From Neisseria sp. (GTDB lineage: Bacteria > Pseudomonadota > Gammaproteobacteria > Burkholderiales > Neisseriaceae), in contig JAUNTY010000015.1 of assembly GCA_030538415.1 (NCBI GenBank), positions 1-53,293 of the forward strand: DNA of 53,293 bases, in the 5' to 3' direction. The translations under genes were made by a program, and so were the position numbers. Under the pieces are notes generated by a model. That model was not told the DNA's origin, ran no database searches, and saw only the letters and a program-made list of their open reading frames with translations. This document shows, piece by piece, positions 17,624 through 49,096 of the stretch. Numbering within the stretch: position 1 is the first letter of the stretch; each line of letters opens with the position of its first letter.

Positions 17624-17819
17624 GAGACCTTTGCAAAATACCTTCCGCTGCATCGCAAAAGCACCCGCTCCGTCATTCCGGCGCAGGCCGGAATCCATAG
17701 CTCACCATGAAACCTATTTGAAATCAAATAACTGAATCTTGGATAAATGGATTCCGGCCTGCGCCGGAATGACGGATGTAATGGATATTTCCAAGAAAAA
17801 AGTATTTTGCAAAGGTCTC
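17624..17819. mobile_element. GAGACC-ended element with NIME-like passenger
   Basis: Ends GAGACCTTTGCAAAATAC and GTATTTTGCAAAGGTCTC enclose two inverted CGTCATTCCGGCGCAGG-type blocks. The same element, inverted, is at 48900-49096. AGGCC on both sides is a 5-bp target duplication; the insertion split a DUS. Confidence 0.85.
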
Positions 17820-17899
17820 AGGCCGTCTGAAACATTGCTTAATAAAAACAATCAAATAAATCATTAATCTAACCATTTGCATCACACCCCAAAGACACC

Positions 17900-20248
17900 A
17901 TGAACCCCAAAACCCGCTTCCTCTACACCGCCTTTACCGCGCTGGCCGCCGTGTTTGTCATCTACACGCTGGCAACCCGCGCGTGGTTGCAAACCGACCT
18001 GACCGCGCTGTTGCCGCAGGAGCAGGTGCAAGATGTGGCGTTGCAGGCGGCGGATGCGGCGAACGAAGCGCAGTTAAACGGGCAGGTGGTGTTGCTGGCG
18101 GGCAGCGACAATGCGGAGCAGGCGTTTCAGACGGCCTCTGCAATCGCCGCATTGTGGCGCGAAAGCGGGGTGTTTGCCGAGGTGGACAGCGCCGTCTCGC
18201 CCGATTTGGCGCAAACCCGCGCCGATGCGGCCGCGCTGGGTTTGGCGACTTTGCCGTCTGCCGAGCGCGAATTATTGATGAACGATGCGGCGCGCTATTT
18301 CCGCCAACGCGCCGAAGATGCGGTGAACCCGTTTGCCGCCGCATCGCCTTTGCCTTTGGACGAGGATTGGCTGGGCTTCGGGCGTTTTGCCTTGGCGCAG
18401 GCCGCGCCGCAGAGCCGTTTGCAATGGCAGGCGGATACGGGGATGTTGTTCACCGAAGACGAGCGCGGCACAACCTGGGTGTGGTTGCGCGGGCGCTTGC
18501 CGTCTGAAAGCAGCATTGCCAACACCGGCGCGGGTTTGCTGCCGCTGTTGCAGGCGAGCCGCGGGCTGGCGGCGCAAGACGATGTGCAGGTATTGAGCGC
18601 GGGCGGGGCGGTGTTTGCGGCGGCGGCCAAAGCCGATGCCGAGCGCGAAAGCCGGCTGATGAGCGCGTTCGGCTTGGGGCTGACGGTGGCCCTGCTGCTG
18701 TGGGTGTTCCGCAGTGGCAGGGTGTTGGCGTTGGTATTGCCGTTGGCGGCGGGGATGCTGACGGGGCTGGCGGCGGCCTTGGCGGTGTTTGGCGAAGTGC
18801 ATATTCTCACCATCGTTATCGGCACGAGTTTGGTGGGGATGCTGGTGGATTTTCCGCTGCATTGGCTTACGCCCTCGGTGTTTCAGGCAGCCTCGCGCCC
18901 GCGCGAATGGCAGGGCGGCTATTGGCCGTCTGAACAGGCGATGCGCCATGTGTTGCCGACTTTTGTGATTAGCCTGACGATTACCGCGCTGGGCTATGCC
19001 TTGTTGTGGTTCACGCCTTTGCCGGTGTTGCGGCAGACGGCGGTGTTTTCCGGCTTTGCGCTTTTGGGCGCGTTTGGCGCGACGGTGTGCTGGCTGCCGC
19101 CGCTGTTTCGCCGTTATGCCAATAAGCGTGTGCCGTTTGCCGCAAGGGTGGAGCGGCTTTATCCGTATGCAGGCCGTCTGAAAACGCGGCTGCAAAAACG
19201 CGGCTGGCTGGTGTTGGGCGGCTTGCTGCTGGCTGCGGGTTTGTGGCGCAGCGATTGGCACGACGACATCCGCCAATGGGTGGCGATGCAGCCTGAAATG
19301 TTGGCCGAAGCGCAGCAAATCGGCGCATTGAGCGGCAACGATTTCGGCGGCCAATACATCGTGGTGGAAGCGGCTGACGACGACGGCCTGCTGCAACAAA
19401 GTGCGGCGGTGGCTGCGGCTTTGCAGCCTCTGGTGGCGGAGAAAAAGCTCGACGGGGTGCAGTCGCTCGACCAATGGCTGCCAACGGCGGCGCAACAGCA
19501 AGCCTTGCGCGAACGCTTGGGCAAGCTGGCCGCCGAGCCTAAAGCGTGGGCGGCGATGCGCGAAATCGGCGTGCCGCGCGCCGCCATGCGCCAAGCCTTG
19601 CAACAGGCGGCGGCAAGTGAAACGGTATCGCTTTCAGACGGCCTCAAAACGCCTTTGGCCGAAGCGTGGCGGCCTTTGTATTTGGGCGAAATCGCGCCGA
19701 AGCGCGTGGCGGCGGTGGTGCGGCTGAACGGGCTGAAAGATGCGGCGGCGGCACAAGCGGCGGTGGGCGGCATGGCGGGTGTGCATTGGGCGGACAAGCG
19801 CGCGCATCTGAACGAATTGTTCCAACACACCCGCAATCAGGCCGCCTGGCTCAAGCTCGCCTCCTATGCGTTGGCGTGGCTGCTGTTGTGGCGCGTGTTC
19901 GGCGCCAAACGCGGCTCGCTGATTCTGGCCGTGCCGCTGGCGGCAGCGGTGTGCACGGTGGCGGCGCTGGGCTGGGCGGGCGTGCCGGTGAGCCTGTTTG
20001 CCATGTTCGGCCTGCTGTTGGTGTCGGCCATCGGCGTGGATTACGCCGTTTACGCCCACGCCGCCCACGAAACCGCCCCCGCGCGGCTCGGCGGCATGAT
20101 GCTGGCCGCGCTCACCACCGGCATTTCCTTCGGCCTGCTGGCCTTGAGCAGCACCCCCGCCGTGGCCGCGTTCGGCATCAGCGTGGCGGTGGGGGTGGTG
20201 TTTAATCTGCTGTTTGCGGCGTGGTTGTTGGAAGAGAAACAGGCATGA
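17900..20248 (+). CDS. MMPL/RND-family exporter (COG4258), polyene cluster
   Basis: A 782-residue inner-membrane exporter. An N-terminal helix is followed by a periplasmic domain, a five-to-six-helix block (about 250-420), a second periplasmic domain (about 450-640) and a final five-helix block. This is the duplicated MMPL layout without the AcrB-size loops. The tract VLSVSAIGVDYAVYAH-like VSAIGVDYAVYA carries an intramembrane Asp for proton coupling. The aryl polyene exporter of this family (ApeM-like) extracts the lipid-linked product for hand-over to the LolA-like carrier. Five DUS copies lie within the coding region. The last 400 bases upstream hold a hairpin and a transposable repeat, so it may have its own promoter. 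Confidence 0.88.
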   Translation: MNPKTRFLYTAFTALAAVFVIYTLATRAWLQTDLTALLPQEQVQDVALQAADAANEAQLNGQVVLLAGSDNAEQAFQTASAIAALWRESGVFAEVDSAVSPDLAQTRADAAALGLATLPSAERELLMNDAARYFRQRAEDAVNPFAAASPLPLDEDWLGFGRFALAQAAPQSRLQWQADTGMLFTEDERGTTWVWLRGRLPSESSIANTGAGLLPLLQASRGLAAQDDVQVLSAGGAVFAAAAKADAERESRLMSAFGLGLTVALLLWVFRSGRVLALVLPLAAGMLTGLAAALAVFGEVHILTIVIGTSLVGMLVDFPLHWLTPSVFQAASRPREWQGGYWPSEQAMRHVLPTFVISLTITALGYALLWFTPLPVLRQTAVFSGFALLGAFGATVCWLPPLFRRYANKRVPFAARVERLYPYAGRLKTRLQKRGWLVLGGLLLAAGLWRSDWHDDIRQWVAMQPEMLAEAQQIGALSGNDFGGQYIVVEAADDDGLLQQSAAVAAALQPLVAEKKLDGVQSLDQWLPTAAQQQALRERLGKLAAEPKAWAAMREIGVPRAAMRQALQQAAASETVSLSDGLKTPLAEAWRPLYLGEIAPKRVAAVVRLNGLKDAAAAQAAVGGMAGVHWADKRAHLNELFQHTRNQAAWLKLASYALAWLLLWRVFGAKRGSLILAVPLAAAVCTVAALGWAGVPVSLFAMFGLLLVSAIGVDYAVYAHAAHETAPARLGGMMLAALTTGISFGLLALSSTPAVAAFGISVAVGVVFNLLFAAWLLEEKQA

Positions 20249-20289
20249 TGTTTATCAAATGATGTGCATACAAGAATTGATATGATGCA

Positions 20290-20349
20290 ACTATTTTTCA
20301 GACGGCATCAGAGGCCGTCTGAAACCTGAAACACCTTATTCAAGGCAAG
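20290..20349. repeat. Left copy of a ~60-bp direct repeat with DUS pair
   Basis: An inverted DUS pair (TTTTTCAGACGGCAT and AGGCCGTCTGAAAC) followed by AAACACCTTATTC is repeated in the same orientation at 20619-20678, about 85% identical by eye. The two copies flank the NIME-type element between them. Confidence 0.75.
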
Positions 20350-20612
20350 TTCGAGATAAGTAAATGAAATATCTTTTGATTTTCAGAAATATATTTTCCG
20401 TGAGGCAGACAGAATCCGTAAGGATTCGTCATTCCCGCGCAGGCGGGAATCCAGAAGCTTGACACTTCGGCAATGTTTTCAAGGTTTCTGAAACCCCAAC
20501 CACTGGATTCCCGCCTGCGCGGGAATGACGAAAATCTGGCGATTTTCTGTCTGTGTGGTGCATACATTTTTGAAAAATAAGAATATCTGAAATGACTATC
20601 CCGAACACATGT
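20348..20612. repeat. dRS3/NIME-type composite repeat
   Basis: Two dRS3 units (ATTCCCGCGCAGGCGGGAAT at 20431 and its inverse-type copy at 20507) flank a ~55-bp spacer. Outside them lie inverted arms (GGCAGACAGAA...TTCTGTCTG) and further AT-rich arms (AATGAAATATC against GATATCTGAAATG-like sequence). This is the classical neisserial intergenic mosaic element; dRS3 units are known phage insertion sites in meningococci. Confidence 0.85.
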
Positions 20613-20618
20613 TATGAA

Positions 20619-20678
20619 ATTATTTTTCAGACGGCATTCAGAGGCCGTCTGAAACCCTAAAATACCTTATTCGGAAAG
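20619..20678. repeat. Right copy of the ~60-bp direct repeat
   Basis: Copy of 20290-20349. It ends 8 bp before the flavoprotein gene start and includes that gene's RBS region (CGGAAAG). It was probably duplicated when the NIME-type block was gained. Confidence 0.75.
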
Positions 20679-20685
20679 TGAAACC

Positions 20686-21924
20686 ATGAATCCCTCTATC
20701 GACGTCGCCATCATCGGCGCAGGCCCTTCCGGCTCGGTGGCCGCCGCTTTGCTGCACAAGCGGGGCTTTACAGTATGCGTGTTGGAAAAACAGCATTTTC
20801 CGCGTTTCGTCATCGGCGAGAGCCTGTTGCCGCACTGCATGGAAATGCTGGAAGAGGCCGGTTTTGCCGAGGCGGTAAAAGCCGAGGCGGGCTTTCAGTT
20901 TAAAAACGGCGCGGCGTTTACCTGGGGCAAGCGCTACACCTATTTCGATTTTACCGACAAGTTTTCGGACGGCCCCGGCACCACTTTTCAAGTGCGCCGC
21001 GCCGTGTTCGACAAAATCCTGATAGACGAAGCGCAAAAACAAGGCGTGGACGTGCGCTTCGGCCACGGCGTTACCGCGTTTGACAACAGCGGCGATTCGG
21101 CGCGGCTGAGCGTGGAAACCGACGGCGGCGAAGCATATGAATTGAGCGCGCGTTTCGTGCTCGATGCCAGCGGCTACGGCCGCGTGTTGCCGCGCCTGCT
21201 CGATTTGGAAACGCCGTCCGAACTGCCGCCGCGCATCGCCCATTTCACCCACATCGACGACCACATCACCAGCCCCAAATTCGACCGCAACAAAATCCTG
21301 ATTACCACCCACCCGCAGCACCGCGACGTGTGGCTGTGGACGATTCCGTTTGCCGACGGCCGCTCTTCCATCGGCGTGGTCGGCACGCCCGACAAACTGG
21401 CGGGCGACAGCGAAACCGTGCTGAAAAAATTTGCGCTCGAATGCCCGATGCTGGCCGAAGTGTTGGCCGATGCCGGGTGGGAGAACGAATTTCCGTTCCG
21501 CAGCATCCAAGGCTATTCCGCCAACGTCAAAACCCTGCACGGCAAACATTTCGCGCTGTTGGGCAACGCGGCGGAATTTCTCGACCCCGTGTTTTCATCG
21601 GGTGTGACCATCGCGCTGCATTCGGCCAAACTCGCCGCCGATTTGCTCGCCAAACAGCTCCAAGGCCAGGCGGCAGACTGGCAAACTGAATTCGCCGATC
21701 CGCTGATGGTGGGCGTGAACACCTTCCGTACCTATGTCAACGGCTGGTACGACCACCGTTTCCAAGACGTGATTTACGCCGACAACCGCAACCCCGACAT
21801 CAGCCGCATGCTCAGCTCGATTCTGGCGGGCTATGCGTGGGATACCGACAATCCGTATGTGGAAAAATCCGAACGCCGTCTGAACGCGCTGGCCGAATTG
21901 GTCGGCGAAGCGAAACAATCGTAA
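20686..21924 (+). CDS. FAD-dependent oxidoreductase (halogenase/geranylgeranyl-reductase-like), polyene cluster
   Basis: A 412-residue flavoprotein. The dinucleotide-binding motif VAIIGAGPSGSVAAALL starts at residue 8, followed by GESLLPHCMEML and the second FAD motif LLGNAAEFLDPVFSSGVTIAL. The overall form is that of the tryptophan-halogenase/geranylgeranyl-reductase superfamily, but I do not see the halogenase WxWxIP motif intact (VWLWTIP is present, a near match). Aryl polyene clusters commonly hold such a gene; its step is unclear. Position between exporter and lipoprotein supports membership. A good RBS (GGAAAG) precedes the start. Confidence 0.82.
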   Translation: MNPSIDVAIIGAGPSGSVAAALLHKRGFTVCVLEKQHFPRFVIGESLLPHCMEMLEEAGFAEAVKAEAGFQFKNGAAFTWGKRYTYFDFTDKFSDGPGTTFQVRRAVFDKILIDEAQKQGVDVRFGHGVTAFDNSGDSARLSVETDGGEAYELSARFVLDASGYGRVLPRLLDLETPSELPPRIAHFTHIDDHITSPKFDRNKILITTHPQHRDVWLWTIPFADGRSSIGVVGTPDKLAGDSETVLKKFALECPMLAEVLADAGWENEFPFRSIQGYSANVKTLHGKHFALLGNAAEFLDPVFSSGVTIALHSAKLAADLLAKQLQGQAADWQTEFADPLMVGVNTFRTYVNGWYDHRFQDVIYADNRNPDISRMLSSILAGYAWDTDNPYVEKSERRLNALAELVGEAKQS

Positions 21925-21932
21925 GGCAAGCA

Positions 21933-21964
21933 GATGCCGTCTGAAAAAAGCATTCAGACGGCAT
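21933..21964. terminator. AT-type DUS hairpin behind the flavoprotein gene
   Basis: ATGCCGTCTGAA and TTCAGACGGCAT around an 8-nt loop. It may partly terminate transcription before the DUF3261 lipoprotein gene. Confidence 0.65.
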
Positions 21965-21997
21965 GATTGTATAGGGTGAAAGTTTCGAAAGAAAACC

Positions 21998-22465
21998 ATG
22001 CGATATTTCAAAAACGTATTTAGCTTATTTTCCACCATCCTGCTGCTCGCCGCCTGCGCCGTTTCAGACGGCCTGCCCCAGCTGCAACACTGGCCGCAAT
22101 GGCAGAGCGCCGACACCCGCTGGTTCAAACTCGAATCGCTGGATGCCGAGGGCAAGGTTAGGCAAACCAGCCTACTGGCGGTGCAGCCCGAAGCCGACAG
22201 CCTGCGCTTCGTGCAAACCGATGCGCTCGGCGCGCCGTTGTCGCGGCAGATTTTGACCCGTCAAGGCTGGCGCAACGACGGCTTCGCCCCGCCCAATCCC
22301 GCCGCCCGCCGCCTTTTTGCCGCTATATTGCCGCTGTTGGCGGTTGACGGAGGCCAGATTTATCCGCCGCAAAATCCGACGCCTTGGCGCAGCCAAGTTT
22401 CAGACGGCATGATGTCGGTTGCTTTTCCTGATGGAACGCATTGGCGGGTTACGCCATTAGAATAA
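21998..22465 (+). CDS. DUF3261 lipoprotein, last gene of the polyene cluster
   Basis: A 155-residue lipoprotein. The signal ends in the lipobox LLAAC with lipidated Cys20. The rest shows the DUF3261 pattern (RWFKLESLDAEGKV..., LSRQILTRQGWRNDGF). Genes of this family are regular companions of aryl polyene MMPL exporter genes and probably act at the outer membrane in placing the product. Two in-frame DUS copies encode VSDGL and VSDGM. After it the cluster stops: a Correia-like and a GAGACC element separate it from a leftward polyamine-binding gene. Confidence 0.8.
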   Translation: MRYFKNVFSLFSTILLLAACAVSDGLPQLQHWPQWQSADTRWFKLESLDAEGKVRQTSLLAVQPEADSLRFVQTDALGAPLSRQILTRQGWRNDGFAPPNPAARRLFAAILPLLAVDGGQIYPPQNPTPWRSQVSDGMMSVAFPDGTHWRVTPLE

Positions 22466-22487
22466 GTACATGATTATTATCGTGAAA

Positions 22488-22562
22488 TATATTCGGAGAA
22501 ATTAGTTTCTGCCACGGCGTTGGCTCGCCGCCTTGTATCAGAAACTCATTTCTCCGACTATA
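22488..22562. mobile_element. Correia-like repeat, short form
   Basis: Right end CTCATTTCTCCGACTATA and a worn left end TATATTCGGAGAAATTAG surround a reduced core (CACGGCGTTGGCTCGCCGCC), 75 bp in all. Confidence 0.75.
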
Positions 22563-22572
22563 AAACAAAGGC

Positions 22573-22788
22573 TTAGACCGTTGCAAAAAAATAACCGTCG
22601 CACCCGTGCAGGCGGGTGCCCAGTCTGAAGCACGGCTTCAGTTTAAACCCGGCAGCCCTATCAATTGCCAAGCTTTTAATTTATATTGTGTTTTGAAATT
22701 TAAACCATGAGCGGACAAGCAAAGCCAGGCTTTGCACTGGGCCACCCGCCTGCGCGGGTGCGACGGGTAGGGGAATTTTGTAAAGATC
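22573..22788. mobile_element. GAGACC-ended element, GCGGGTGC module
   Basis: Left end is degenerate (TTAGACCGTTGCAAAA) and right end AATTTTGTAAAGATC. Almost identical inside to 40139-40353. AAAGGC borders it on both sides, consistent with a 5- to 6-bp target duplication at the foot of the next DUS hairpin. Confidence 0.75.
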
Positions 22789-22820
22789 AAAGGCCGTCTG
22801 AAATATTTCAGACGGCCTTT
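22789..22820. terminator. DUS hairpin terminator for the polyamine-binding gene
   Basis: AAAGGCCGTCTGAAA and TTTCAGACGGCCTTT around a 2-nt loop, 16 bp beyond the leftward gene's stop. Confidence 0.8.
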
Positions 22821-22836
22821 GAAGATAGGCTGGCGC

Positions 22837-23997
22837 TTATTTACCCGCCTTGATGCTTTGCCATTGGCGCACCATCAGCTTCAGGCTTTCCGGCTCGATG
22901 GGAATCATAATGAAGCTGTTTTTCATGTCTTCATCGGTGGGGAAAACGGTGTTGTCATCGCGGTATTCCGCCGCCATCAGCGCGCGCGCAGGCAGGCTGG
23001 CGGGGGCGTAGGTGACGTATTCGCCGTTTTTGGCCGCCACTTCGGGCTCGAGACTGTTGTCGATGTAGCGGTGGGCGTTGAGGATGTTGGCGGAATCTTT
23101 CGGGATCGCAAACGAATCAATCCAGATGCCCACGCCTTCTTTCGGCATCATCACCTGGATTTTTTCCTTGCCGCCCGCTTCTTCGGCGCGGCGTTTGGCG
23201 ATGTTCAAATCGCCGCCGAAGCCGACGGTGACGCAGGTGTCGCCGCGTGCCAAATCATCGATAAAGCCCGATGAGGTGAAGCGTTTGATATTCGGGCGGT
23301 TTTGCTTGAGCAAATCGGTGGCGGCTTTGATGTCGTCGGGATTGCTGCTGTTGGGGTTTTTACCCATATAGTTCAATACCATCGGGTAGATTTCGGCGGC
23401 GCTGTCGAGGTAGCTGATGCCGCATTGTTTCAGCTTGGCGGTGTATTCGGGGTTGAACACCAAATCCCATTGGTTATCGGGCAGGGTGTCGCTGCCGAGG
23501 GCTTTTTTGACGCGCTCGGTGTTGATGGCGAAGGTGTTGGTGCCCCAAAAGAAGGGCACGGCGTAATCGTTGCCGGGATCGACGTTCTGCATCAGTTCGA
23601 GGAGCTTGGGATTGATGTTTTTATAGTTGGTAATCAGGCTCTTGTCGAGTTTTTGATATGCGCCGGCCTTGATTTGGCGGCCGATAAAGGCATTGGAGGG
23701 GCCGGTGATGTCGTAGCCGGATTTGCCGGAAAGCACTTTGGCTTCGAGGGCTTCGTCGCTGTCGTACACATCATAAGTGACTTTGACGCCGTATTGTTTT
23801 TCAAAATCGGTAATGGTGTCGGGATCGACATAATCCGACCAGTTGTAGATTTTCAGCGCGGCGGTGGCGGGCAGGGCGCTGCTGTTTTCGGTTTGCGCGG
23901 CGGAGGCGGGCGTGCTGTTGGGGGGCTTTTCGTTGGACTTGTCGCCGCAGGCTGCCAGCGCCAAGACCACGAGGCCGAATAAAGACAATGATTTCAT
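22837..23997 (-). CDS. Polyamine ABC transporter substrate-binding lipoprotein (PotF/PotD type)
   Basis: A 386-residue periplasmic binding protein anchored by a lipobox (LALAAC, Cys17). LKIYNWSDYVDPDTITDFEKQYGVKVTYDVYDSDE is the PotF/PotD N-terminal lobe, and WGTNTFAINTERVKKAL, GGDLNIAKRR and GVGIWIDSFAIP follow as in putrescine-binding PotF. The start at 23997 was chosen for the signal peptide and the GAGGAAA RBS; a 17-codon extension is less likely. It captures putrescine or spermidine for uptake. No ATPase or permease genes are adjacent, so it must work with components encoded elsewhere. Confidence 0.9.
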   Translation of the reverse strand: MKSLSLFGLVVLALAACGDKSNEKPPNSTPASAAQTENSSALPATAALKIYNWSDYVDPDTITDFEKQYGVKVTYDVYDSDEALEAKVLSGKSGYDITGPSNAFIGRQIKAGAYQKLDKSLITNYKNINPKLLELMQNVDPGNDYAVPFFWGTNTFAINTERVKKALGSDTLPDNQWDLVFNPEYTAKLKQCGISYLDSAAEIYPMVLNYMGKNPNSSNPDDIKAATDLLKQNRPNIKRFTSSGFIDDLARGDTCVTVGFGGDLNIAKRRAEEAGGKEKIQVMMPKEGVGIWIDSFAIPKDSANILNAHRYIDNSLEPEVAAKNGEYVTYAPASLPARALMAAEYRDDNTVFPTDEDMKNSFIMIPIEPESLKLMVRQWQSIKAGK

Positions 23998-24169
23998 CAG
24001 GTTTTCCTCATATCGGGTTAATCGAAAAATGCAATCGAAGTATAACAAAAGCCGCCGCCATCGGGTAGGCGAAACGGCGGATTTCGGGTAAGATAGCCAA
24101 GATTTTATTTTGCTTTTCAGACGGCATCGAAGGCCGTCTGAAAACCGTTTAACTTACAGAAAAAACGCT

Positions 24170-27070: not shown

Positions 27071-27085
27071 TCTGCTGCCGACAAG

Positions 27086-30849: not shown

Positions 30850-31067
30850 GAGAACCTTTGCAAAATTCCCTTACCCGTCGCACCCGCGCAGGCGGGTACC
30901 CAGCCTGAAGCAAGGCTTCAGCTCAAACTTGCTGGCCCTGAAAATGCACAATTTAATGATTCATATGGGGCTTTTAGAATCATGAAAATAGGCAGACAAG
31001 CAAAGCTGCGCTTTGCCCTAGGCACCCGCCTGCGCGGGTGCGACGGTTATTTTTTTGCAAAGGTTTC
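30850..31067. mobile_element. GAGACC-ended element, GCGGGTGC module
   Basis: Ends GAGAACCTTTGCAAAATTCCC and TTTTTTTGCAAAGGTTTC around the standard module. Target duplication is not evident. Confidence 0.8.
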
Positions 31068-31188: not shown

Positions 31189-31232
31189 GTGCGCCTGCGC
31201 GGGTGCGACGGTTATCTTTTGCAAAAGCCTCA
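31189..31232. repeat. Solo right-end fragment of a GAGACC-type element
   Basis: GCGCCTGCGCGGGTGCGACGG followed by TTATCTTTTGCAAAAGCCTC equals the last ~43 bp of the GCGGGTGC module; the rest is gone, truncated at the Correia-like repeat. Confidence 0.65.
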
Positions 31233-32863: not shown

Positions 32864-33079
32864 GAGACCTTTGCAAAATTCCCCTACCCGTCGCACCCGC
32901 GCAGGCGGGTGCCTGGTGCAAAGCGCAGCTTTGCTTGTTTGTCTATTCCTCTGATTCTAAGAATCCAATATGAATCATTGGGTTGTGAATTTTCAGAACT
33001 GGCAGGTTTGAGCTGAAGCGTTGCCTCCGACTGGGCACCCGCCTGCGCGGGTGCGACGGTTATTTTTTGCCAAGGTCTC
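32864..33079. mobile_element. GAGACC-ended element, GCGGGTGC module
   Basis: Ends GAGACCTTTGCAAAATTCCC and TTTTTTGCCAAGGTCTC; well-preserved module of 216 bp. Confidence 0.85.
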
Positions 33080-39167: not shown

Positions 39168-39183
39168 TGCTGGCGCACAAAAA

Positions 39184-39933
39184 TCAGCGTTCGCTTTTCA
39201 GTGTACGCTGGCGGCGGGTTTCGCTTAACACCATGCCTGCGGATACCGATACGTTCATGCTCTCCACCGTGCCGAACATCGGAATCGACACCAATATATC
39301 GCAATGCTCGCGGGTGAGGCGGCGCATGCCTTCGCCCTCGTTGCCCATCACCCAGGCCACGCTTTCGGGCAGCGCGCAATGGAACAAATCCGCGTCGCCG
39401 CCCATGTCGGTGCCGACAATCCAGATGCCGTATTCTTTCAATTCGCGCAGGGTGCGGGCGAGGTTGGTGACGGTGATGTAGGGCACGGTTTCCGCCGCGC
39501 CGCAGGCCACTTTGCTCACGGTGGCATTCAGCCCCGCGCTTTTGTCTTTCGGCGCAATCACGGCGTGCACGCCCATCGCGTCGGCGGTGCGCAGGCAGGC
39601 GCCGAGGTTGTGCGGGTCGGTGATGCCGTCGAGCACCAATAACAAGGGCGGTTCGCTCAGGTTTTCCAACACGTCTTCCAGATGCACGTGGTTTTTTGAA
39701 GCGTCGATAAACCCGACCACGCCCTGATGGCGCGCGCCTTTGCTGATGCTGTCGAGGCGGGCGGCATCGGCAAAATGCAGGCGCACGTTTTCGGCGGCGG
39801 CTTTTTCCAATACCTCGCGGGTGCGGGCGTCGTGTTTGCCTTCCTGAATGTAAAGCTCGGTGATGGATTTCGGGTTTTGCCACAGGCGGGCATTGACGGC
39901 GTGAAAGCCGTAGATGAGTCGTTGGTTGGCCAT
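39184..39933 (-). CDS. rlmB: 23S rRNA (guanosine-2'-O)-methyltransferase RlmB
   Basis: A 249-residue SpoU/TrmH-class knotted methyltransferase that methylates the 2'-O of G2251 in 23S rRNA (E. coli numbering), using SAM. The N-terminal RNA-binding domain ([23 protein letters not shown]) precedes the three SpoU motifs: [28 protein letters not shown] and [21 protein letters not shown]. Length is normal. The start has only a weak RBS (AAAGC). Single gene. Confidence 0.94.
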
Positions 39934-40138
39934 GATTTTGCTTTAAAAGTGGTTTCAGACGGCATTATACAGGTTTGGCCTGAGGCCGTCTGAAAAGCAT
40001 CCGGCAGATCGGCGAGGCTTTGCTCCCGCGCTGGCCGGATGCGGCGACACGACCTGATGCCCGGCGCGTGCAGGTGCGGTTGCAGTAATCATCCAATGCA
40101 GTTTCCAACGTTGTTTGGGAGCGCGAAAGACGCAGGAT
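39934..40138. other. Intergenic spacer upstream of rlmB
   Basis: Contains an inverted DUS pair (39953-39964 and 39981-39993) and otherwise GC-rich sequence without a supported gene. Confidence 0.4.
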
Positions 40139-40353
40139 GAGACCGTTGCAAAAAATAACCGTCGTACCCGCGCAGGCGGGTGCCCAGTCTGAAGCACAGC
40201 TTCAGTTTAAACCCGGCAGCCCTATCAATTGCCAAGCTTTTAATTTATATTGTGTTTTGAAATTTAAACCATGAGCGGACAAGCAAAGTCAGGCTTTGCA
40301 CTGGGCACCCGCCTGCGCGGGTGCGACGGGTAGGGGAATTTTGCAAAGGTCTC
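40139..40353. mobile_element. GAGACC-ended element, GCGGGTGC module
   Basis: Ends GAGACCGTTGCAAAAAATA and GAATTTTGCAAAGGTCTC. The inner part is nearly identical to 22573-22788. Flanks AGGAT/AGGGT could be a worn 5-bp duplication. Confidence 0.85.
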
Positions 40354-40468
40354 AGGGTATGTGGTTTTAAAGCAAGCCAGCGCGGCAATTGCCTGGCAGG
40401 CTTTTTATGCGAAATGATTGATTTGGTGTTATGATTATTGCGGTAATTATTTTTTAAACGGGCAAAAC

Positions 40469-42706: not shown

Positions 42707-42822
42707 TGCCATTGCCGGTAAAGGCCGTCTGAAAGATTTCTGGTTGCCGCAGATTGTCAGGAAGCCCTAGCCACATCGGAAAATGACCGGAGATGCAGCT
42801 CAAATTGTGCACCGGCCTGCAA

Positions 42823-43134
42823 TCAGGCGCGCAACTGCCGCCACATCAGATAATCGCGCAACGGCGGCACGGGCGGGTTGAGACAGTGCGGGCAGACGCC
42901 GGTCACATCTTCATCCTCTTCTTCGACATGCAGCGCATTCGGGTCGAATTTTGCCTGCTGCATCACCGCCTGCGCCAGCGCCTGCGCCTGAACCACGTCA
43001 AAATCAAAGTTTTCGAGGATTTCGAACAACAGGCCGGTTTCGGCATCGCTGAAACCGCTGCTGTGGGTTTCAATCAGGCGGATATAGTCGGTGTTGTGGA
43101 TTTTTTGTCGGAGCAACTGGATGGGATTGTGCAT
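42823..43134 (-). CDS. Conserved hypothetical protein with CPHC motif
   Basis: A 103-residue soluble protein, rich in acidic residues in the middle (VEEEDEDVTG) followed by CPHCLNPPVPP. I believe homologues occur in Neisseria but know no function. The single CxxC-type pair (C-P-H-C) could bind metal or be redox active. No signal peptide. Convergent with comEC; a single DUS lies between them. Confidence 0.65.
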   Translation of the reverse strand: MHNPIQLLRQKIHNTDYIRLIETHSSGFSDAETGLLFEILENFDFDVVQAQALAQAVMQQAKFDPNALHVEEEDEDVTGVCPHCLNPPVPPLRDYLMWRQLRA

Positions 43135-43338
43135 AGATAATCAGAAAACAGGCAGAAATAAAGTTACATTATAGTCTATACCGCAACGATGAAACACCGT
43201 TTGCTGCCTGTGCCGTCTGAAACCTGTCATGTATAATTATAATTTGGCGGAGCGGCTGAAACGGCGGAGCGATTTCCGGTAATGATACCGCATTGAGCTC
43301 ACATTGATTTCATGATGGTTATTCGGGAGGGTGGCAGC

Positions 43339-43803
43339 ATGGCCTGGTTTTATTTGATAACCGCCTTGGCAGCGGGCGCCGGATTGTCGGTGCAGGCTGC
43401 GGTAAACAGCCGTTTGAGTGCGGGCATGGGCGGCCAGCCTTTGCTGGCGGCTTTGATATCGTTTGCTGTCGGCACGCTTTGTCTGCTGGTGGCCGCCTTG
43501 TTGCAGAGCAATTGGAGCGTTGCTGCCGCCAATGCAGCGCAACAACCGGGGTGGCGTTGGGCGGGCGGCGTGATTGGTGCGGGATTTGTGTTTACTTCGG
43601 TGTTGCTGGCACCGAAAATCGGCATTGCCAACACCATGTTTCTGTTTATCCTCGGCCAGCTTGCCAGCAGCATGCTGATCGACCACTTCGGTCTGATACA
43701 GATGCCGGTGCGGCCTTTGCAGTGGTGGAAGTTTGCCGGAATGGCGGTGATGCTGGCAGGCGTGGCCTTGTTTGTGTTCGGTGAGCGCTGGTTCAGGCCT
43801 TAG
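43339..43803 (+). CDS. YdcZ/DUF606-family membrane protein (DMT superfamily)
   Basis: A 154-residue inner-membrane protein with five hydrophobic helices. AAGAGLSVQAAVNSRLSAGMGGQPLLAALISFAVG and GWRWAGGVIGAGFVFTSVLLAPKIG are typical of the YdcZ family, half-size relatives of drug/metabolite transporters that dimerise. The substrate is unknown. The start at 43339 has GGGAGG 8 bp upstream. TATAAT at 43232-43237 is a plausible -10 box. Convergent with the binding-protein gene across a shared terminator. Confidence 0.8.
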   Translation: MAWFYLITALAAGAGLSVQAAVNSRLSAGMGGQPLLAALISFAVGTLCLLVAALLQSNWSVAAANAAQQPGWRWAGGVIGAGFVFTSVLLAPKIGIANTMFLFILGQLASSMLIDHFGLIQMPVRPLQWWKFAGMAVMLAGVALFVFGERWFRP

Positions 43804-43819
43804 GGCTTCCTGACAAAGT

Positions 43820-43847
43820 AAAAGCCCGATACATGTATCGGGCTTTC
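43820..43847. terminator. Bidirectional terminator, non-DUS
   Basis: AAAGCCCGATACATGTATCG and onward forms a perfect palindrome of 26 bp, with A- and T-runs outside, between convergent genes. Confidence 0.85.
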
Positions 43848-43866
43848 TGCATTCAAGCGGTTGGTT

Positions 43867-44652
43867 TTATTTGGCAAAATATTTGCTGTAAATCTGGTCG
43901 TATTCGCCGTTGTCGCGCACTTTCTGGAGCGCATCGTTGAGCATGTCTACAGTAGCGGTGTTGCCTTTGTTGACAGCCATGCCGTAATGCTCCACTTCAA
44001 AGTCGGGCACGGCCACCATGCTGAAACCTTTGTCGCTGTTGTTTTTGATGTAGTTGCCCACCACGGCGCTGTCGCTTACCACGGCATCCAGGCCGCCGCT
44101 TTCCAGCTCTTTAATCAGAAGCGGCAGGTTTTCGAAGCGGGCGATTTTGGGGCTGTCGTTGCCGAGGATTTTGGAGGCGGCAAAATCACCGGTGTTGCCG
44201 GTCACCACGCCGACCCTTTGTACGTTTTTCAAATCGGCCACGGATTTGATGCTTTTGCCCTGCGGCACCAGAATAACCTGGGTGATTTCAAAATAGGGCG
44301 CGGTGAAATCCATGCTTTGCTTACGGTCATCGGTGATGGTCACCGCGGAGGCGAGGATGTCCACATCGCCGTTGGCCAGCGCGGGGAAGAGGCTGTCCCA
44401 CGGCTGGTGCTTGAATTCCACTTTGAAATTGCCTGCTTTGGCCATGGCGTTGACCAAATCCACATCAAAGCCCTGCACCTGATTAGACGAATCCAGCGAT
44501 TCGAACGGTGCGAATTCGGCATTCATGGCCACGCGGTATACTTTGTCGGGATTTTGCGCCGGAGCAGCCGCGCTGCCGCTTTCGCCGCCACAGGCACCCA
44601 GTGCCAGAGCGGAGCAGGCCAGGGCGGTGGCCAGCCATTTTTTCATGTTCAT
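43867..44652 (-). CDS. Amino-acid-type ABC substrate-binding lipoprotein (SBP family 3)
   Basis: A 261-residue periplasmic binding protein anchored by lipobox LGAC (Cys21). The fold markers are YRVAMNAEFAPFESLDSSNQVQGFDVDLVNAMAK, the ligand-contact stretch SAVTITDDRKQSMDFTAPYFE and VGVVTGNTGDFAA. Family members bind polar amino acids such as arginine, glutamine or cystine. No permease or ATPase genes are adjacent. The upstream CAGGAA suits the ATG at 44652; another ATG lies 6 bp in. Confidence 0.88.
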   Translation of the reverse strand: MNMKKWLATALACSALALGACGGESGSAAAPAQNPDKVYRVAMNAEFAPFESLDSSNQVQGFDVDLVNAMAKAGNFKVEFKHQPWDSLFPALANGDVDILASAVTITDDRKQSMDFTAPYFEITQVILVPQGKSIKSVADLKNVQRVGVVTGNTGDFAASKILGNDSPKIARFENLPLLIKELESGGLDAVVSDSAVVGNYIKNNSDKGFSMVAVPDFEVEHYGMAVNKGNTATVDMLNDALQKVRDNGEYDQIYSKYFAK

Positions 44653-44738
44653 GGTCGATTCCTGAGAAAATAAATCAAACGCTTATTTTAGCATAAATTT
44701 ACAAAACAACGGTAATTGTTTCAGACGGCCTGTGTGCA

Positions 44739-44990
44739 TCAACGCTCTTTTTCACGAAAGAAAGCATAGGTCACATCATGAAACAAGTCCACATGCGGGC
44801 TGTCTTCATAGTTCAGCTCAGCCAGCGCATCTTCAAAAGCCAGTTGGACGGATTCCACCACGTCTTGCGCCATGTCGGCGGGCAGGGCGCGAATCATGCC
44901 TTTGAAGGCCGTTGCCAGCACGTGATTCTGCATGCGCAATATATCATTGGCTTCTTCCAGATAGTCGAGACGTTGTTCGATGCTGCTCAT
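44739..44990 (-). CDS. Small conserved hypothetical protein with coiled-coil start
   Basis: An 83-residue acidic protein. The first ~30 residues (IEQRLDYLEEANDILRMQNHVL) are predicted coiled coil; the C-terminal part DALAELNYEDSPHVDLFHDVTYAFFREKE is unknown to me. No signal peptide. AAAGGA with 6-bp spacing favours the second of two adjacent ATGs. Divergent from the acidic protein gene at 45211. A single DUS lies upstream of its neighbour. Confidence 0.6.
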   Translation of the reverse strand: MSSIEQRLDYLEEANDILRMQNHVLATAFKGMIRALPADMAQDVVESVQLAFEDALAELNYEDSPHVDLFHDVTYAFFREKER

Positions 44991-45210
44991 CATGTTTCCT
45001 TTGAATAATCTGTTAGAATGTGCGCATTATATAGCGAAACCAGACAAACCGACATCAACCGGCAGGGCGCTGCGCGCCGTGGCGGATTTTCAGTATCCAC
45101 GTCTGCCCGAACAAGCCGCTTTCTTTGAGCCGGAGCAACCGGCCGGGCCAGCTTGTTTTTCAACGGGCATCACCACAATAAAACAGCAACCGAATGAAAG
45201 TATTCCTATA

Positions 45211-46059
45211 ATGAGCAACCAACACCCAACCCCAGACCATCCTCTTACGCCTGAAGAATCCGTTTCCGCAACCGCTGCACAGCCGCAGGCGCAGCAGGAA
45301 GAATTCGATTGGGAGCGCGGTTTGGAGCAGCTGCGCGAAAAACGGCAAACGCCGCCGGCCGATGCCGCGCATGCCGACGTCCGGATTGCTGCGGCAGAGC
45401 CTGCCCGCCGCAGCCCGGCAGAGCCGCAGCAAGCCGCAGACAAGCGCGCTCTTGATGCGGTGGCACGCGAAAAAGTCTTGCGTGAATACCTGCAGCAGTG
45501 GCAGCAGGAGCACAATGATGCCTTCAGCGAGGAGGAAATCACCGGCGCTGAAACCGATACGACCGTATTGCTGCAGGAAGACTGGCTGAGCGCCCAGAAT
45601 GCCTTGCGCACGGCGGCCGACGAACATGTTTTGGCAAGCCATACCGTGTGGCTGAACCCCAAACGGCAGCAGGCGGCAGTGCAGCAGCAAGAAGAGGACG
45701 GGGAAACAGCATATGCCGAAGAGGAAGCATCAGAAGAAGCATTGCCGCTGTCGCCGGAGCAGCTTCCGGTTACCGTTCAAGTCATTGATCCTCGCGTGAA
45801 TCCTGCCTTGCCGGTGATGTGTCTGTCGGAAAAAGAATTGATGGAGCGCCTGACCAGACGTTTGCGCCCGCACCTGACCGATGCCGTTGCCGGAATGGTG
45901 CGCGTGGCCGTGCAGAAACAGGCTGCCGCATTGACTTACCAGCTGCAACAAAACCTGAACGAGCAAACCCCGGCGCTGGTAGACGAGATTCTCGAATACA
46001 ATCTCAAGGCCGTCATGTCGGAAATCCGCTACGACTTGAAATTCAAGCGCAACAAATGA
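45211..46059 (+). CDS. Hypothetical acidic, Gln/Glu/Ala-rich protein
   Basis: A 282-residue protein I do not recognise. Residues 1-210 are low-complexity and acidic (many Q, E, A), likely disordered. Residues about 210-282 ([31 protein letters not shown] ... [27 protein letters not shown]) form a helical domain with a basic end. It has no signal peptide or membrane segment. The stop overlaps the start of the DUF3465 gene (ATGA), so the two are translationally coupled. The start at 45211 has only a weak RBS; the open frame extends upstream without a convincing start. Confidence 0.6.
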
Positions 46060-46514
46060 ACACTATGTCGAAATGGATCTGGATTATCATCGCCGCTGCA
46101 GCATTGTTCGGCTATCAGCGCTGGCAGCAGCCTGCAAGCGAGCCTGTTGCCGTCGAATCATCCGCATCTGCCACCGCCGACAGCGACCAAAAGTTTCAGA
46201 CGGCCTTTGAGCAGAAGCAAAGCAATCTGCAGATAGCAGGCAGCGGCAGGGTCATCAAAACCCTGCCCGACGACAACAAAGGCTCGCGGCACCAACGCTT
46301 TATTCTCAAACTCGACAGCGGCCAAACTTTGCTGGTGGCGCACAATATTGATTTGGCGCCCAAAATCAAAGGCTTGAAAAAAGGCGACAGAATAGTGTTT
46401 TACGGCGAATATGAATGGACGGAGCAGGGCGGGGTGATTCATTGGACGCACCACGACCCGGCAGGCCGCCATGTCGGCGGCTGGTTAAAACATGACGGAA
46501 AAACATACCAATAA
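46056..46514 (+). CDS. DUF3465-like periplasmic protein
   Basis: A 152-residue protein with an N-terminal membrane anchor or signal ([17 protein letters not shown]). The globular part has an OB-like pattern: [57 protein letters not shown] and [22 protein letters not shown]. This matches DUF3465 as I know it; the function is unknown, although the histidine cluster WTHHDP..H is conserved. An ATG at 46065 is an alternative start. An in-frame DUS encodes FQTA. Confidence 0.7.
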
Positions 46515-46552
46515 AACAGATTACAAGCCTGCATCCAGACAGCGCAAATTTC

Positions 46553-46585
46553 TTTCAGACGGCCTCAAACACAGGCCGTCTGAAA
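46553..46585. terminator. DUS inverted pair after the DUF3465 gene
   Basis: TTTCAGACGGCCT and AGGCCGTCTGAAA with a 7-nt loop. Confidence 0.65.
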
Positions 46586-46628
46586 TGCAGTTGGCTTCGG
46601 CCTGCCGCCTTGTGCCGATTTGCATCAA

Positions 46629-46736
46629 TATAGTCGAATAAATTAGCTTCTGCTACAGCGTTGGCTCGCCTTGTCGTACTATCTGTACTGTCTGCAGCTC
46701 GCCGCCTTGTGTCAGAAGCTAATTTCTCCGGCTATA
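46629..46736. mobile_element. Correia-like repeat
   Basis: 108 bp with ends TATAGTCGAATAAATTAG and CTAATTTCTCCGGCTATA and a full core. It ends 41 bp before the acetyl-CoA acetyltransferase start, in promoter position. Confidence 0.85.
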
Positions 46737-46777
46737 AAAGAAAACCAAATAAAATCAAACAATAAAAGGAGAGACAC

Positions 46778-47959
46778 TTGGAAAAAATCGTTATCGTGGC
46801 CGCCGTGCGCACAGCTATCGGCAGCTTTTCCGGCAGCCTCAGCAGCATGCGCGCACCGGCGCTCGGAGCCGCCGTTATCAAAGCCTTGCTCGATAAAACC
46901 GGCGTGCAACCCGGACAGGTTGACGAAGTGCTGATGGGCAATGTGCTCACCGCCGGAGTCGGCCAGAATCCGGCGCGCCAGGCCGCTTTGGCAGCCGGGT
47001 TGCCCATACACATTCCCGCCACCACCGTCAACACCGTCTGCGGCTCCGGCCTGACTGCCGTCCAACTCGCCGCACGCAGCATTGCCTGCGGCGACAGCGA
47101 AATCGTGATTGCCGGTGGCCAGGAAAACATGTCTCAAGCGCCCCATTTGCTGGCAGGCTTCCGAAACGGCCAAAAAATGGGCAATGCCACACTGGTCGAC
47201 AGCATGGTTTCAGACGGCCTTACCGATGTTTACCACCAATACCACATGGGCATCACCGCCGAAAACATCGCCGAAAAACTCGGTATCAGCCGCGAAGAAC
47301 AAGATGCATTGGCGCTGGTTTCGCAACAACGGGCTGCCGCTGCACAAGCCGCAGGCAGGTTTGCACAAGAAATCATCCCGGTCGCCGTACCGCAACGGCA
47401 TGGTGACGCGGTCATTTTCGACGCCGACGAATACATCAAACCCGCCGCCAACGCCGAAAGCATCGCCAAACTGCGCCCGGCGTTTAAAAAAGACGGCACC
47501 GTCACCGCAGCCAACGCTTCCGGTATCAACGACGGCGCGGCCGCCGTCATGCTGATGGGCGCCAAAAAAGCCCGGGAATTGGGGTTAACACCGCTGGCAA
47601 GCATCAAGGCTTATGCCGCCACCGGTATCGAACCCGAAATCATGGGCTTGGGGCCGGTGCCCGCGATAAAGCAAACCTTGCAGAAAGCTGGTTGGCAAAT
47701 TGGCGATTTGAATCTAATCGAAGGCAACGAAGCATTCGCTGCGCAAGCCCTGGGCGTTGCCCGTGAGCTCGGATTTGATATGGACAAGGTCAACGTCAAC
47801 GGCGGTGCCATCGCTTTGGGGCATCCCATCGGCGCATCCGGCTGCCGCATCCTGGTGACCTTGCTGCACGAAATGCAGCGGCGCCACGCCCGAAAAGGCT
47901 TGGCTGCCTTATGCGTCGGCGGCGGCATGGGCGTTGCCCTGGCGGTGGAGCGCGACTGA
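46778..47959 (+). CDS. Acetyl-CoA acetyltransferase (thiolase II)
   Basis: A 393-residue cytoplasmic thiolase that condenses two acetyl-CoA to acetoacetyl-CoA, or the reverse. Acyl-accepting Cys88 is in NTVCGSGL, His349 in ALGHPIGASG and the second active Cys379 in CVGGGMG. GGQENMSQAPHLL and the loop domain are normal. The start is a TTG with a strong RBS (AAAGGAGAG), and the family begins MEKIVIVAAVRTAIG exactly here. Single gene; roles include fatty acid or ketone-body metabolism. Confidence 0.94.
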   Translation: MEKIVIVAAVRTAIGSFSGSLSSMRAPALGAAVIKALLDKTGVQPGQVDEVLMGNVLTAGVGQNPARQAALAAGLPIHIPATTVNTVCGSGLTAVQLAARSIACGDSEIVIAGGQENMSQAPHLLAGFRNGQKMGNATLVDSMVSDGLTDVYHQYHMGITAENIAEKLGISREEQDALALVSQQRAAAAQAAGRFAQEIIPVAVPQRHGDAVIFDADEYIKPAANAESIAKLRPAFKKDGTVTAANASGINDGAAAVMLMGAKKARELGLTPLASIKAYAATGIEPEIMGLGPVPAIKQTLQKAGWQIGDLNLIEGNEAFAAQALGVARELGFDMDKVNVNGGAIALGHPIGASGCRILVTLLHEMQRRHARKGLAALCVGGGMGVALAVERD

Positions 47960-47962
47960 CTG

Positions 47963-47992
47963 TTTCAGACGGCCTTCAGAGGCCGTCTGAAA
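47963..47992. terminator. DUS hairpin behind the thiolase
   Basis: TTTCAGACGGCCT and AGGCCGTCTGAAA with a 4-nt loop. Confidence 0.75.
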
Positions 47993-48021
47993 TGATAAAA
48001 ATTTGCAACGGAGAAAAACAA

Positions 48022-48408
48022 ATGGAATGGGAAAACCGAATCAAAAGAATGAAGATGAACAAATGGCAAATATTGCTTATTACGGTATCAAGCCTTTTTA
48101 TAGCACATCCCGCATCCGCAAAATATATATGGGATATCGAAAGGGCGGAGCGCAGCTGCGAGCTTCAAAAAAATTCCATTCTCCGAGAACGCAACGGAAC
48201 ACCAGCCTGCACGGAACTTAAAAACTTAAAAAGAATGCAGAGAGAATACAACCACCGACAAGGGATCATTAATTACCAAGCAGACCAACGAGAAAGACTT
48301 GAACGCCAAGAACGCGAATACCGGAATAAAAACCCCAAAAGCAAGAAAAATGGCGACGGCGCGCTACAAGCTTGCCCAAAAATGACAGACCAGCACCACC
48401 GCGCTTGA
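48022..48408 (+). CDS. Hypothetical secreted protein, low GC
   Basis: A 128-residue protein not recognised. A signal peptide is clear (MNKWQILLITVSSLFIAHPASA), and the ATG at 48022 is favoured by GGAGA 7 bp upstream even though it makes a longer n-region. The mature part has two pairs of Cys-containing helices (SCELQK, TPACTELK) and a strongly charged tail (RERLERQEREYRNKNPKSKK). Base composition is lower in GC than its neighbours, and the following ~200 bp are AT-rich, suggesting acquired DNA. Confidence 0.6.
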   Translation: MEWENRIKRMKMNKWQILLITVSSLFIAHPASAKYIWDIERAERSCELQKNSILRERNGTPACTELKNLKRMQREYNHRQGIINYQADQRERLERQEREYRNKNPKSKKNGDGALQACPKMTDQHHRA

Positions 48409-48602
48409 GTATCCGCGAACAAAGATGCCTTAACTGAAACAATAGGGGCAAGAATGAGCCTGGCGGCCACTGCGAACACTTGGCGGCCACGTAAGACGGA
48501 AGTGCTAGCATTTTCTATTTCGCATAATCTATATTATGTTAAATTTTATATTATGATTATCTTAGATTGTGCCCACTATAAGCTGAAGCTGATGCAGAAA
48601 GC
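48409..48602. other. AT-rich non-coding stretch
   Basis: No gene is seen. It holds a near-direct repeat (CTGGCGGCCACTGCGAACACTT / TTGGCGGCCACG, abbreviated) and then strongly AT-rich DNA (TATATTATGTTAAATTTTATA). It is probably part of a small acquired patch with the preceding gene. Confidence 0.4.
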
Positions 48603-48706
48603 TATAGTCGTTCCGTTAGATTGATACAGCGTTGCTGCGCCTTGCCGTACTACCTGTACTGTCTTCGGCTTACTGCTTTGTCTCAATCTAAATTGAAACG
48701 ACTATA
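48603..48706. mobile_element. Correia-like repeat, TCGTTCCG end type
   Basis: 104 bp, ends TATAGTCGTTCCGTTAG and AAATTGAAACGACTATA with the core in the opposite orientation to 38128. It abuts the ppsA fragment. Confidence 0.85.
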
Positions 48707-48712
48707 TACAGT

Positions 48713-48871
48713 CACTTCCTGGCCATCTGAAAGCTGAAAGCGCCGAAGTGACATCACCGCAGTACTACTGCCGGAATGCCCGGCTCGCGCGCAATAATCG
48801 TTGCGTGGCAGGTGCGGCCGCAGCGATTGGTAACGATGGCGTAAGCGCGTTTCATCACCGGCTCCCATCAA
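48713..48871 (-). pseudogene. Decayed fragment of ppsA (phosphohistidine region)
   Basis: Read leftward, about 158 bp match ppsA 36790-36946 at roughly 85-90% by eye: GGAGCCGGTGATGAAACGCG, ACCTGCCACGCA.CGATTAT, ATTCCGGCAGTAGT and GGCCAGGAAGTGACTGTAT. Single-base losses break the frame and the DUS of ppsA is altered to TCAGATGGCC with a small local duplication. It ends exactly at a Correia-like repeat on one side and close to a GAGACC element on the other. It makes no protein. Confidence 0.85.
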
Positions 48872-48899
48872 TTAAAAACCACAGGCCGTCTGAAAGGTT

Positions 48900-49096
48900 G
48901 AGACCTTTGCAAAATACTTTTTTCTTGGAAATATCCATTCCATCTGTCATTCCGGCGCAGGCCGGAATCCATTTTTTCAAGGTTCAGTTATTTGATTTCA
49001 AATGGGTTTTCATGGTGAGCTATGGATTCCGGCCTGCGCCGGAATGACGGAGTGGATGCTTTTGCGACGCAGCAAAAGGTATTTTGCAAAGGTCTC
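48900..49096. mobile_element. GAGACC-ended element with NIME-like passenger
   Basis: Inverted copy of 17624-17819 (about 90% identical by eye). AGGTT on both sides is a 5-bp target duplication. Removing the element restores a DUS hairpin (CACAGGCCGTCTGAA ... TTCAGACGGCCTGTG). Confidence 0.88.

Follow-up and report, generated by a model that had tools for sequence, protein, structure and literature searches.

ISNme1, an IS5-family insertion sequence (IS) of Neisseria meningitidis, has the 15-bp ends GAGACCTTTGCAAAA / TTTTGCAAAGGTCTC according to Table 2 of PMC4596501, where it is also named as the proposed parent of ATR, a miniature inverted-repeat transposable element (MITE). A different repeat, dRS3, ranks second in abundance among the repeat classes of meningococci (PMC3898611), and a 2013 survey describes the CGTC repeats as apparently lacking a dedicated transposase and possibly mobilized by others (PMC3733652). 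In N. meningitidis, IS1106 (ISNm1106) has been reported to prefer spacers that contain repetitive extragenic palindromic (REP) repeats (PMC1525189). Here, we report an analysis of repeats with GAGACC ends in a 53,293-nucleotide stretch of DNA (the window; contig JAUNTY010000015.1 of assembly GCA_030538415.1) from a draft genome of the Neisseria type (G000), which comprises 2.84 Mb in 106 contigs and is 96% complete. These repeats are very probably MITEs of an ISNme1-like IS of the IS5 family that targets AGGCC, and carry dimers of CGTC/dRS3 palindromes. MITEs of a known IS family are familiar; what is unusual is a target motif common to the DNA uptake sequence (DUS) and a reassorting cargo of CGTC/dRS3 dimers.

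Transposition of mini-elements with ISNme1-type ends

The 15-bp ends of the mini-elements match those of ISNme1, as tabulated in PMC4596501, letter for letter. With up to 3 mismatches, GAGACCTTTGCAAAA has 20 matches in the window, where 100 shuffles averaged 2.4 and gave no more than 7; with up to 1 mismatch, there are 305 matches genome-wide and 1 for the reversed control. Paired elements were counted in a sample of 1.061 Mb of this genome, window included; the counts exclude lone ends, copies whose two ends together have more than 4 mismatches (such as window copy 22574) and copies lying within 60 bp of where a fetched stretch ends. Exact 5-bp duplications flank 40 of the 71 paired elements in this sample, against a mean of 10.4 and a maximum of 19 in 2000 shuffles of the flanks, and a further 16 match at 4 of 5 positions; no element among the 71 matches at a duplication length of 3, 4, 6 or 7 bp. 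The first 793 kb sampled had yielded exact duplications in 28 of 54 paired elements. No transposase gene is present in the full sequences of 54 elements, which span 56-322 bp. The repeats are transposition products (MITEs) that make 5-bp target duplications, and the duplications to which a preliminary description of the window had drawn attention exceed chance across the sample.

Counting both strands, AGGCC is the duplicated sequence in 31 of the 40 exact copies. Four exact copies sit inside other copies, two within an end (C1:2922, with AGACC, and C12:25990, with AGGCC; contig:position) and two within a spacer (C26:3120 and C42:8278). At the lower end of the size range, three 56-bp elements (C14:1469, C53:43371 and C60:7685) comprise little beyond two GAGACC ends that form one palindrome; two of the three have exact AGGCC/GGCCT duplications, making this the smallest apparently mobile form. 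A Correia-type identity of the GAGACC copies was rejected, because Correia elements are reported to have 26-bp repeats and to duplicate TA (PMC3898611).

Target choice: AGGCC, uptake sequences and hairpins

Using 12-mer spellings of the uptake-sequence dialects, we counted 1274 copies of AGGCCGTCTGAA, 99 of ATGCCGTCTGAA and 4 of AGGTCGTCTGAA in the sample, which makes this an AG-dialect genome as PMC3630211 uses the term; the uptake core GCCGTCTGAA occurs 96 times in the window. AGGCCGTCTGAA opens with AGGCC; most intergenic targets are, for this reason, DUS edges, whether paired or single, and after insertion the element has AGGCC on one flank and an intact DUS on the other. DUS edges account for 27 of the 31 AGGCC duplications.

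Site usage was compared with a background from which element copies were masked, with genes called by a crude longest-open-reading-frame scheme. Intergenic insertion rates per 1000 sites are 29.6 for AGGCC within a DUS (24/811) and 20.1 for AGGCC outside (4/199). Sites with one mismatch are hit at 13.1 per 1000 next to a DUS flank (2/153) and at 0.54 without a DUS (3/5511), and all other sites at 0 (0/538) and 0.024 (4/169432), respectively. Outside DUS, AGGCC is hit about 800 times as often, per site, as other intergenic sites, a contrast that persists at about 800-fold when nested copies are omitted (3/199 versus 3/169432). The preference for AGGCC in this genome is strong.

The enzyme could, nevertheless, read the whole 12-bp AG-DUS (AGGCC followed by GTCTGAA), or a DUS-binding host factor could guide it, with no hairpin needed. 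Such recognition would account for the concentration of exact copies at AGGCC DUS edges (27/40) and for one more at an ATGCC DUS edge; it would also fit the use, in relatives, of first-five-base variants beside GTCTGAA and the neglect of non-DUS AGGCC in G007, a genome of the AGGTC dialect. In the own genome, however, AGGCC is used about equally with and without a DUS (24/811 versus 4/199; odds ratio 1.47, p=0.63), small numbers in which one of the four non-DUS copies lies inside another copy's end, leaving 3/199. We consider whole-DUS recognition possible but rather unlikely.

Few insertions fall in called coding sequence, where three exact copies all occupy AGGCC DUS edges (3/460) and non-DUS AGGCC is not hit (0/2469). 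This scarcity is what one would expect if the elements inserted widely and persisted only at harmless, terminator-like DUS sites, the association with DUS being one of survival. Such selection leaves unexplained both the exact register at the AGGCC edge and the roughly 800-fold difference between non-DUS AGGCC and other intergenic sites, and we regard it as very unlikely.

A preference for hairpin-forming pairs of uptake sequences, as proposed in the preliminary description, seemed plausible from the window, where 4 of the 9 copies are located at or in a DUS or DUS pair, and 15 of the 24 intergenic insertions at AGGCC in DUS do involve paired DUS. Yet unoccupied intergenic DUS of the AGGCC type are paired equally often (486/811), so that paired DUS (15/486) are not enriched over unpaired ones (9/325; odds ratio 1.11, p=0.84), and AGGCC outside DUS is used at a similar per-site rate. 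An earlier count of 28 exact copies agrees, with 21 at DUS edges, 13 of them paired (background, 618/780 and 360/618). Two of the three coding insertions are at paired DUS (2/89 versus 1/371 sites), too few to weigh. Recognition of DUS hairpins by the transposase is, accordingly, the explanation to which we give the least credence, as extremely improbable.

Landing sites across uptake-sequence dialects

Relatives that use other dialects provide a natural experiment, in which the landing sites of a mobile element change with the uptake-sequence dialect of the host. In AG-dialect genomes, 18 of the 24 full IS with exact duplications are inserted at a DUS edge (G011 5/7, G014 7/7, G043 5/7, G004 1/3), compared with 0 of 35 in genomes of other dialects, namely G007 (0/23) and G019 (0/6) of the AGGTC dialect (mostly AGGTCGTCTGAA) and G020 (0/6) of the ATGCC dialect (mostly ATGCCGTCTGAA). 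The comparison omits copies with identical left flanks, and outside the sums are G036 (0/2) and G037 (0/1), which are small or mixed, and G044 (0 exact of 2). Landing is dialect-dependent apparently because target and signal have five letters in common, and the 0/35 in genomes with AGGTC- or ATGCC-type DUS is a further argument against hairpin recognition.

The transposase of G007 is 98% identical to that of G004 and 94% identical to that of G014, in a comparison that disregards G011b (a fragment of 78 amino acids) and G020 (316 amino acids, with a diverging C-terminal end). With 94% identical enzymes, G007 and G014 differ at 0/23 versus 7/7 in their use of DUS edges, and dialect explains the AGGCC shortfall incompletely. 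Target choice varies within the IS family, and the body of the DUS may also contribute to it.

The donor element

The ends of the mini-elements are also equal to those of 1.1-1.3 kb elements in the genus. In a search of 45 genus genomes, PF05598 transposases were found in 26 and none in the own genome. GAGACC ends lie 900-1400 bp apart at 16 of 30 fetched genus loci, 11 of the 16 with an exact 5-bp duplication (counted by eye), and in ten sister genomes, end pairs 900-1500 bp apart, which we took as full IS although a few are possibly nested, show exact duplications in 62 of 91 cases. The transposases of two full IS match NF033581 (NCBIfam IS5) at 259 and 253 bits (cut-off 140) as well as PF01609 and PF05598, these being the two proteins tested.

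Given that the genus holds full IS with the same ends and that none was found in this assembly, a transposase acting in trans is the natural reading, and the one that the preliminary description had suggested; the same-ended full IS that it called for turned up in sister genomes and not here. Judging by the shared ends, duplication size and target, the mini-elements were presumably moved by a transposase supplied in trans, and the donor IS would be absent from this genome or lost from the assembly. The own PF01609 genes, on C93 and C27, were rejected as donors: a degenerate search found no GAGACC-type ends in the surrounding 3.3-3.5 kb, and the C93 protein, the own-genome one most similar to one sister transposase, is a partial match at 31% identity. 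At C93:7400 (L031), an element with TAGGGCTTCCTGACAA-type ends next to a DUS pair holds another IS5-type transposase gene.

Palindrome dimers as cargo

Between their ends, the elements carry one of two cargoes, GCACCC-type or ATTCC-type, which the preliminary description had called unrelated. Their sequences do differ, but the anatomy is one: both types consist of an end, an arm, (C/T)GTC, an 8-bp stem, a 4-bp loop, the stem again, CC, a spacer, and then the mirror image, that is, head-to-head CGTC-tagged palindromes. The stems are GCACCCGC, ATTCCGGC or ATTCCCGC in 127 of the 134 CGTC palindromes of the own sample, and the loop is GCAG in 123. The copies in the window, with arms ATTCCG and GCACCC, do not match the dRS3 consensus ATTCCC(N8)GGGAAT; canonical ATTCCC stems are present in the sister genome G011.

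An inward-facing GAGACC end lies within 60 bp of 96 of these 134 palindromes (random expectation 0.8%) and of 14 of 14 in the G011 sample. Among 52 head-to-head dimers in the own sample, 40 are between two GAGACC ends, 5 have one such end and 7 are elsewhere, and all six G011 dimers are between GAGACC ends (6/6). CGTC dimers are, thus, carried mainly within GAGACC ends and also outside them.

Other contexts of these dimers are represented in the window. An ATTCCGG CGTC palindrome dimer without GAGACC ends occupies 13771..13876, between TATAGT and ACTATA, so that in the region 13730-13900 the same cargo resides inside a second class of ends. Copies of the GCACCC type that measure 312-322 bp (C8:14692, C60:24895, C9:28078, C14:10336 and C11:15158) contain, in an arm or the spacer, a second element of about 100 bp with TATAGT..ACTATA ends, which we take to be Correia-like or related. 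A third context holds, at 20427..20530, a palindrome dimer of canonical dRS3 (ATTCCC) that likewise has no GAGACC ends; its surroundings (GGCAGACAGAATCCGTAAGGATT .. AAAATCTGGCGATTTTCTGTCTG) recur at C28:7420, C62:8015, C62:18332 and C51:8643 and represent a separate repeat family.

Reassorting arms and spacers

Spacer orientation, scored by alignment, could be parsed for 56 of the 71 copies, 3 of which remained unclassified. With the spacer fixed, the arms of the 27 GCACCC-type copies are arranged 2-1 in 14, 1-2 in 5 (one of them, C46:35776, with weak scores), 1-1 in 3 and 2-2 in 2, the 3 unclassified copies also belonging here; in the 29 ATTCC-type copies, the order is 1-2 in 25 and 2-1 in 4. 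The spacer is, therefore, inverted in 5/27 and 4/29 copies, respectively, and the same arm stands on both sides in 5/27 of the GCACCC type. Within the window, the spacers of 6886 and 30851 are inverted compared with 1121, 32864 and 40139. Among the mini-elements, four of 70-75 bp retain both arms with just one palindrome, and G011, a single-contig genome, combines the same arms with different spacers (read by eye). Since spacers are found both ways round with respect to the arms, the modules appear to reassort at the palindromes.

The spacer might be inverted by a dedicated site-specific recombinase, such as a Piv/IS110-type enzyme, that acts on the dRS3-like palindromes. Such an enzyme would fit the nine inversions and five same-arm copies that the 56 parsed copies show across two palindrome types, as well as the role of dRS3 as an integration target of Nf phages (PMC3898611). 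Homologous exchange between inverted repeats would suffice to the same end, however, and the own genome has 0 matches to PF01548 (the second IS110 domain was not searched), so that we find a dedicated recombinase unlikely.

Elements of the window

Paired ends bound nine elements in the window; seven belong to the GCACCC type and the other two to the ATTCCGG type. The preliminary description had correctly typed six of the former and both of the latter, and had missed a ninth copy, of 102 bp. Exact 5-bp duplications flank 1121, 17624 and 48900; the flanks of 22574, 40139 and 50464 match at 4 of 5 positions, and 6886, 30851 and 32864 are without a duplication.

Of the three exact copies, the GCACCC-type MITE at 1121..1339 has two perfect ends and the duplication GGCCT at 1116-1120 and 1340-1344; it adjoins the outer edge of a DUS pair, and its CGTC-type palindromes are at 1149-1168 and 1293-1312. 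The ATTCCGG-type (dRS3-like) MITE at 17624..17819, with perfect ends and palindromes at 17675-17694 and 17751-17770, is flanked by AGGCC at 17619-17623 and 17820-17824, the right copy being the start of an intact DUS (AGGCCGTCTGAA), a single one with no inverted partner nearby. The other ATTCCGG-type MITE, at 48900..49096 (perfect ends, duplication AGGTT, palindromes at 48949-48968 and 49026-49045), sits in the loop between two inverted DUS. The three duplications GGCCT, AGGCC and AGGTT had been noted before; the fourth that was claimed, AAAGG at 22573, conflicts with the ends of the element, which give the flanks AGGCT/AGGCC. This copy, a GCACCC-type MITE at 22574..22790 with a decayed right end and palindromes at 22600-22619 and 22742-22761, likewise adjoins the outer edge of a DUS pair. 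That all four lie within or touch DUS inverted repeats holds for 1121, 22574 and 48900 but is too strong for 17624, with its single DUS.

The remaining elements are all of the GCACCC type. The MITE at 6886..7102, placed at 6882 in the preliminary description and said to touch a DUS, is in fact five bases away from a single DUS; its ends are decayed, its palindromes are at 6912-6931 and 7054-7073, and its spacer is inverted relative to the arms in comparison with 1121. The spacer is likewise inverted in the MITE at 30851..31067 (palindromes at 30880-30899 and 31022-31041), beyond which lies a lone GAGACC-type end on the minus strand, apparently from a truncated copy (31217..31231). The MITE at 32864..33079 has palindromes at 32893-32912 and 33035-33054 and unmatched flanks (CACCT/GGCCC); the one at 40139..40353 has palindromes at 40164-40183 and 40305-40324 and flanks AGGAT/AGGGT. 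The shortened 102-bp copy at 50464..50565 contains one palindrome (50492-50511) between the flanks AGCTT/AGCTC.

Discussion

We envisage that the mini-elements were moved by an ISNme1-like transposase supplied in trans, which this genome now lacks or the assembly fails to include. Insertion would take place at AGGCC, the start of AGGCCGTCTGAA, duplicating 5 bp and keeping one intact DUS beside the element, and the CGTC/dRS3 dimers would be given a ride by the IS5-type transposase. Spacers and arms may then be exchanged through homologous or template-switch recombination at the palindromes.

Several observations weigh against this account. An exact duplication is missing in 31 of the 71 copies, and no clean orthologous empty site was found: among the sites compared, C9:67043 gave one suggestive case and C60:24895 none, one relative aligns better without the element (575 versus 462) across a poorly conserved junction, the intergenic DNA of the nearest relatives is too diverged at 48900 (neighbouring gene 84% identical), and the gene flanking 1121 could be aligned in only four relatives. 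A transposase with GAGACC ends was not found in this assembly, and donor and mini-element were not seen together; the draft breaks inside such repeats, and the six contig ends examined lead into mini-element sequence.

Target choice adds to these difficulties. G007 has 0/23 AGGCC insertions where the own-genome rates predict about 24% (5.6/23), and 0/23 at one-mismatch DUS edges where about 41% (about 9.5/23) would be predicted from a rate that comes from two copies; the duplications of G007 and G019 conform less strictly, to a symmetric AGNCT pattern (29 sites). In favour of a role for the DUS body, other five-base sequences are used next to GTCTGAA, with ATGCC, AGGCT and TGCCT duplications in AG-dialect genomes and, outside the dialect-grouped sets, AGGTC in L051 (G024) and AAGCC in L054 (G041). 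Also in favour of such a role, the lone ATGCC insertion in the own sample is at 1 of 99 AT-type DUS, with 0 at the other 4042 ATGCC sites, and of the two one-mismatch hits with a DUS flank, one is a true AT-type DUS edge and the other (C30:2992) a chance near-match. Finally, element copies are masked from the background, yet 4 of the 40 exact insertions lie inside such copies.

A more elaborate scheme would treat the elements as a cassette platform, in which IS5-type ends insert at DUS edges and spare the signal, a dedicated enzyme inverts or exchanges spacers at the CGTC/dRS3 palindromes, and arms and passengers evolve independently and spread by DUS-dependent transformation; we view this scheme as doubtful. 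The simpler account, of MITEs mobilized in trans, offers a vehicle for the CGTC repeats, including dRS3, that have been reported without a dedicated transposase. With most CGTC repeats in the examined samples inside IS5-type mini-transposons, their spread becomes testable, and an insertion with an intact uptake signal alongside could move efficiently between cells by transformation.

Among known systems, ISNme1 of N. meningitidis has identical 15-bp ends, as given in PMC4596501; it carries a transposase, whereas the copies here, of 56-322 bp, do not. ATR elements, the N. meningitidis MITEs assigned to ISNme1, resemble the copies here in lacking a transposase and having ISNme1-type ends, but are described as an AT-rich repeat with 19 occurrences (PMC4596501), in contrast to the 305 end matches and the CGTC palindrome dimers inside the elements of this genome. 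No report of AGGCC/DUS-edge targeting by ISNme1-type elements, or of dRS3 dimers within ISNme1 ends, was found in the literature covered, many subscription papers being outside it. IS1106 is, likewise, an IS5-family element found near palindromic repeats, although the published case is a proximity association, without an AGGCC or DUS register (PMC1525189). BrickBuilt of Porphyromonas gingivalis, a GAGACC-ended MITE, is also tied to IS5-family elements and differs in target duplications of varying length and in the tandem 23-nt repeats inside (PMC4596501). The dRS3/NIME units and CGTC-1 REPs have the CGTC tag, 8-bp stem, 4-bp loop, CC tail and head-to-head dimers around a spacer that are seen here (PMC3733652, PMC9778887). 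The passengers described here differ from them in being enclosed in IS5-type ends with target duplications, and in having the stems ATTCCGGC or GCACCCGC instead of ATTCCCGC, the GCACCC stem departing from the usual AT start of CGTC-1/dRS3 repeats.

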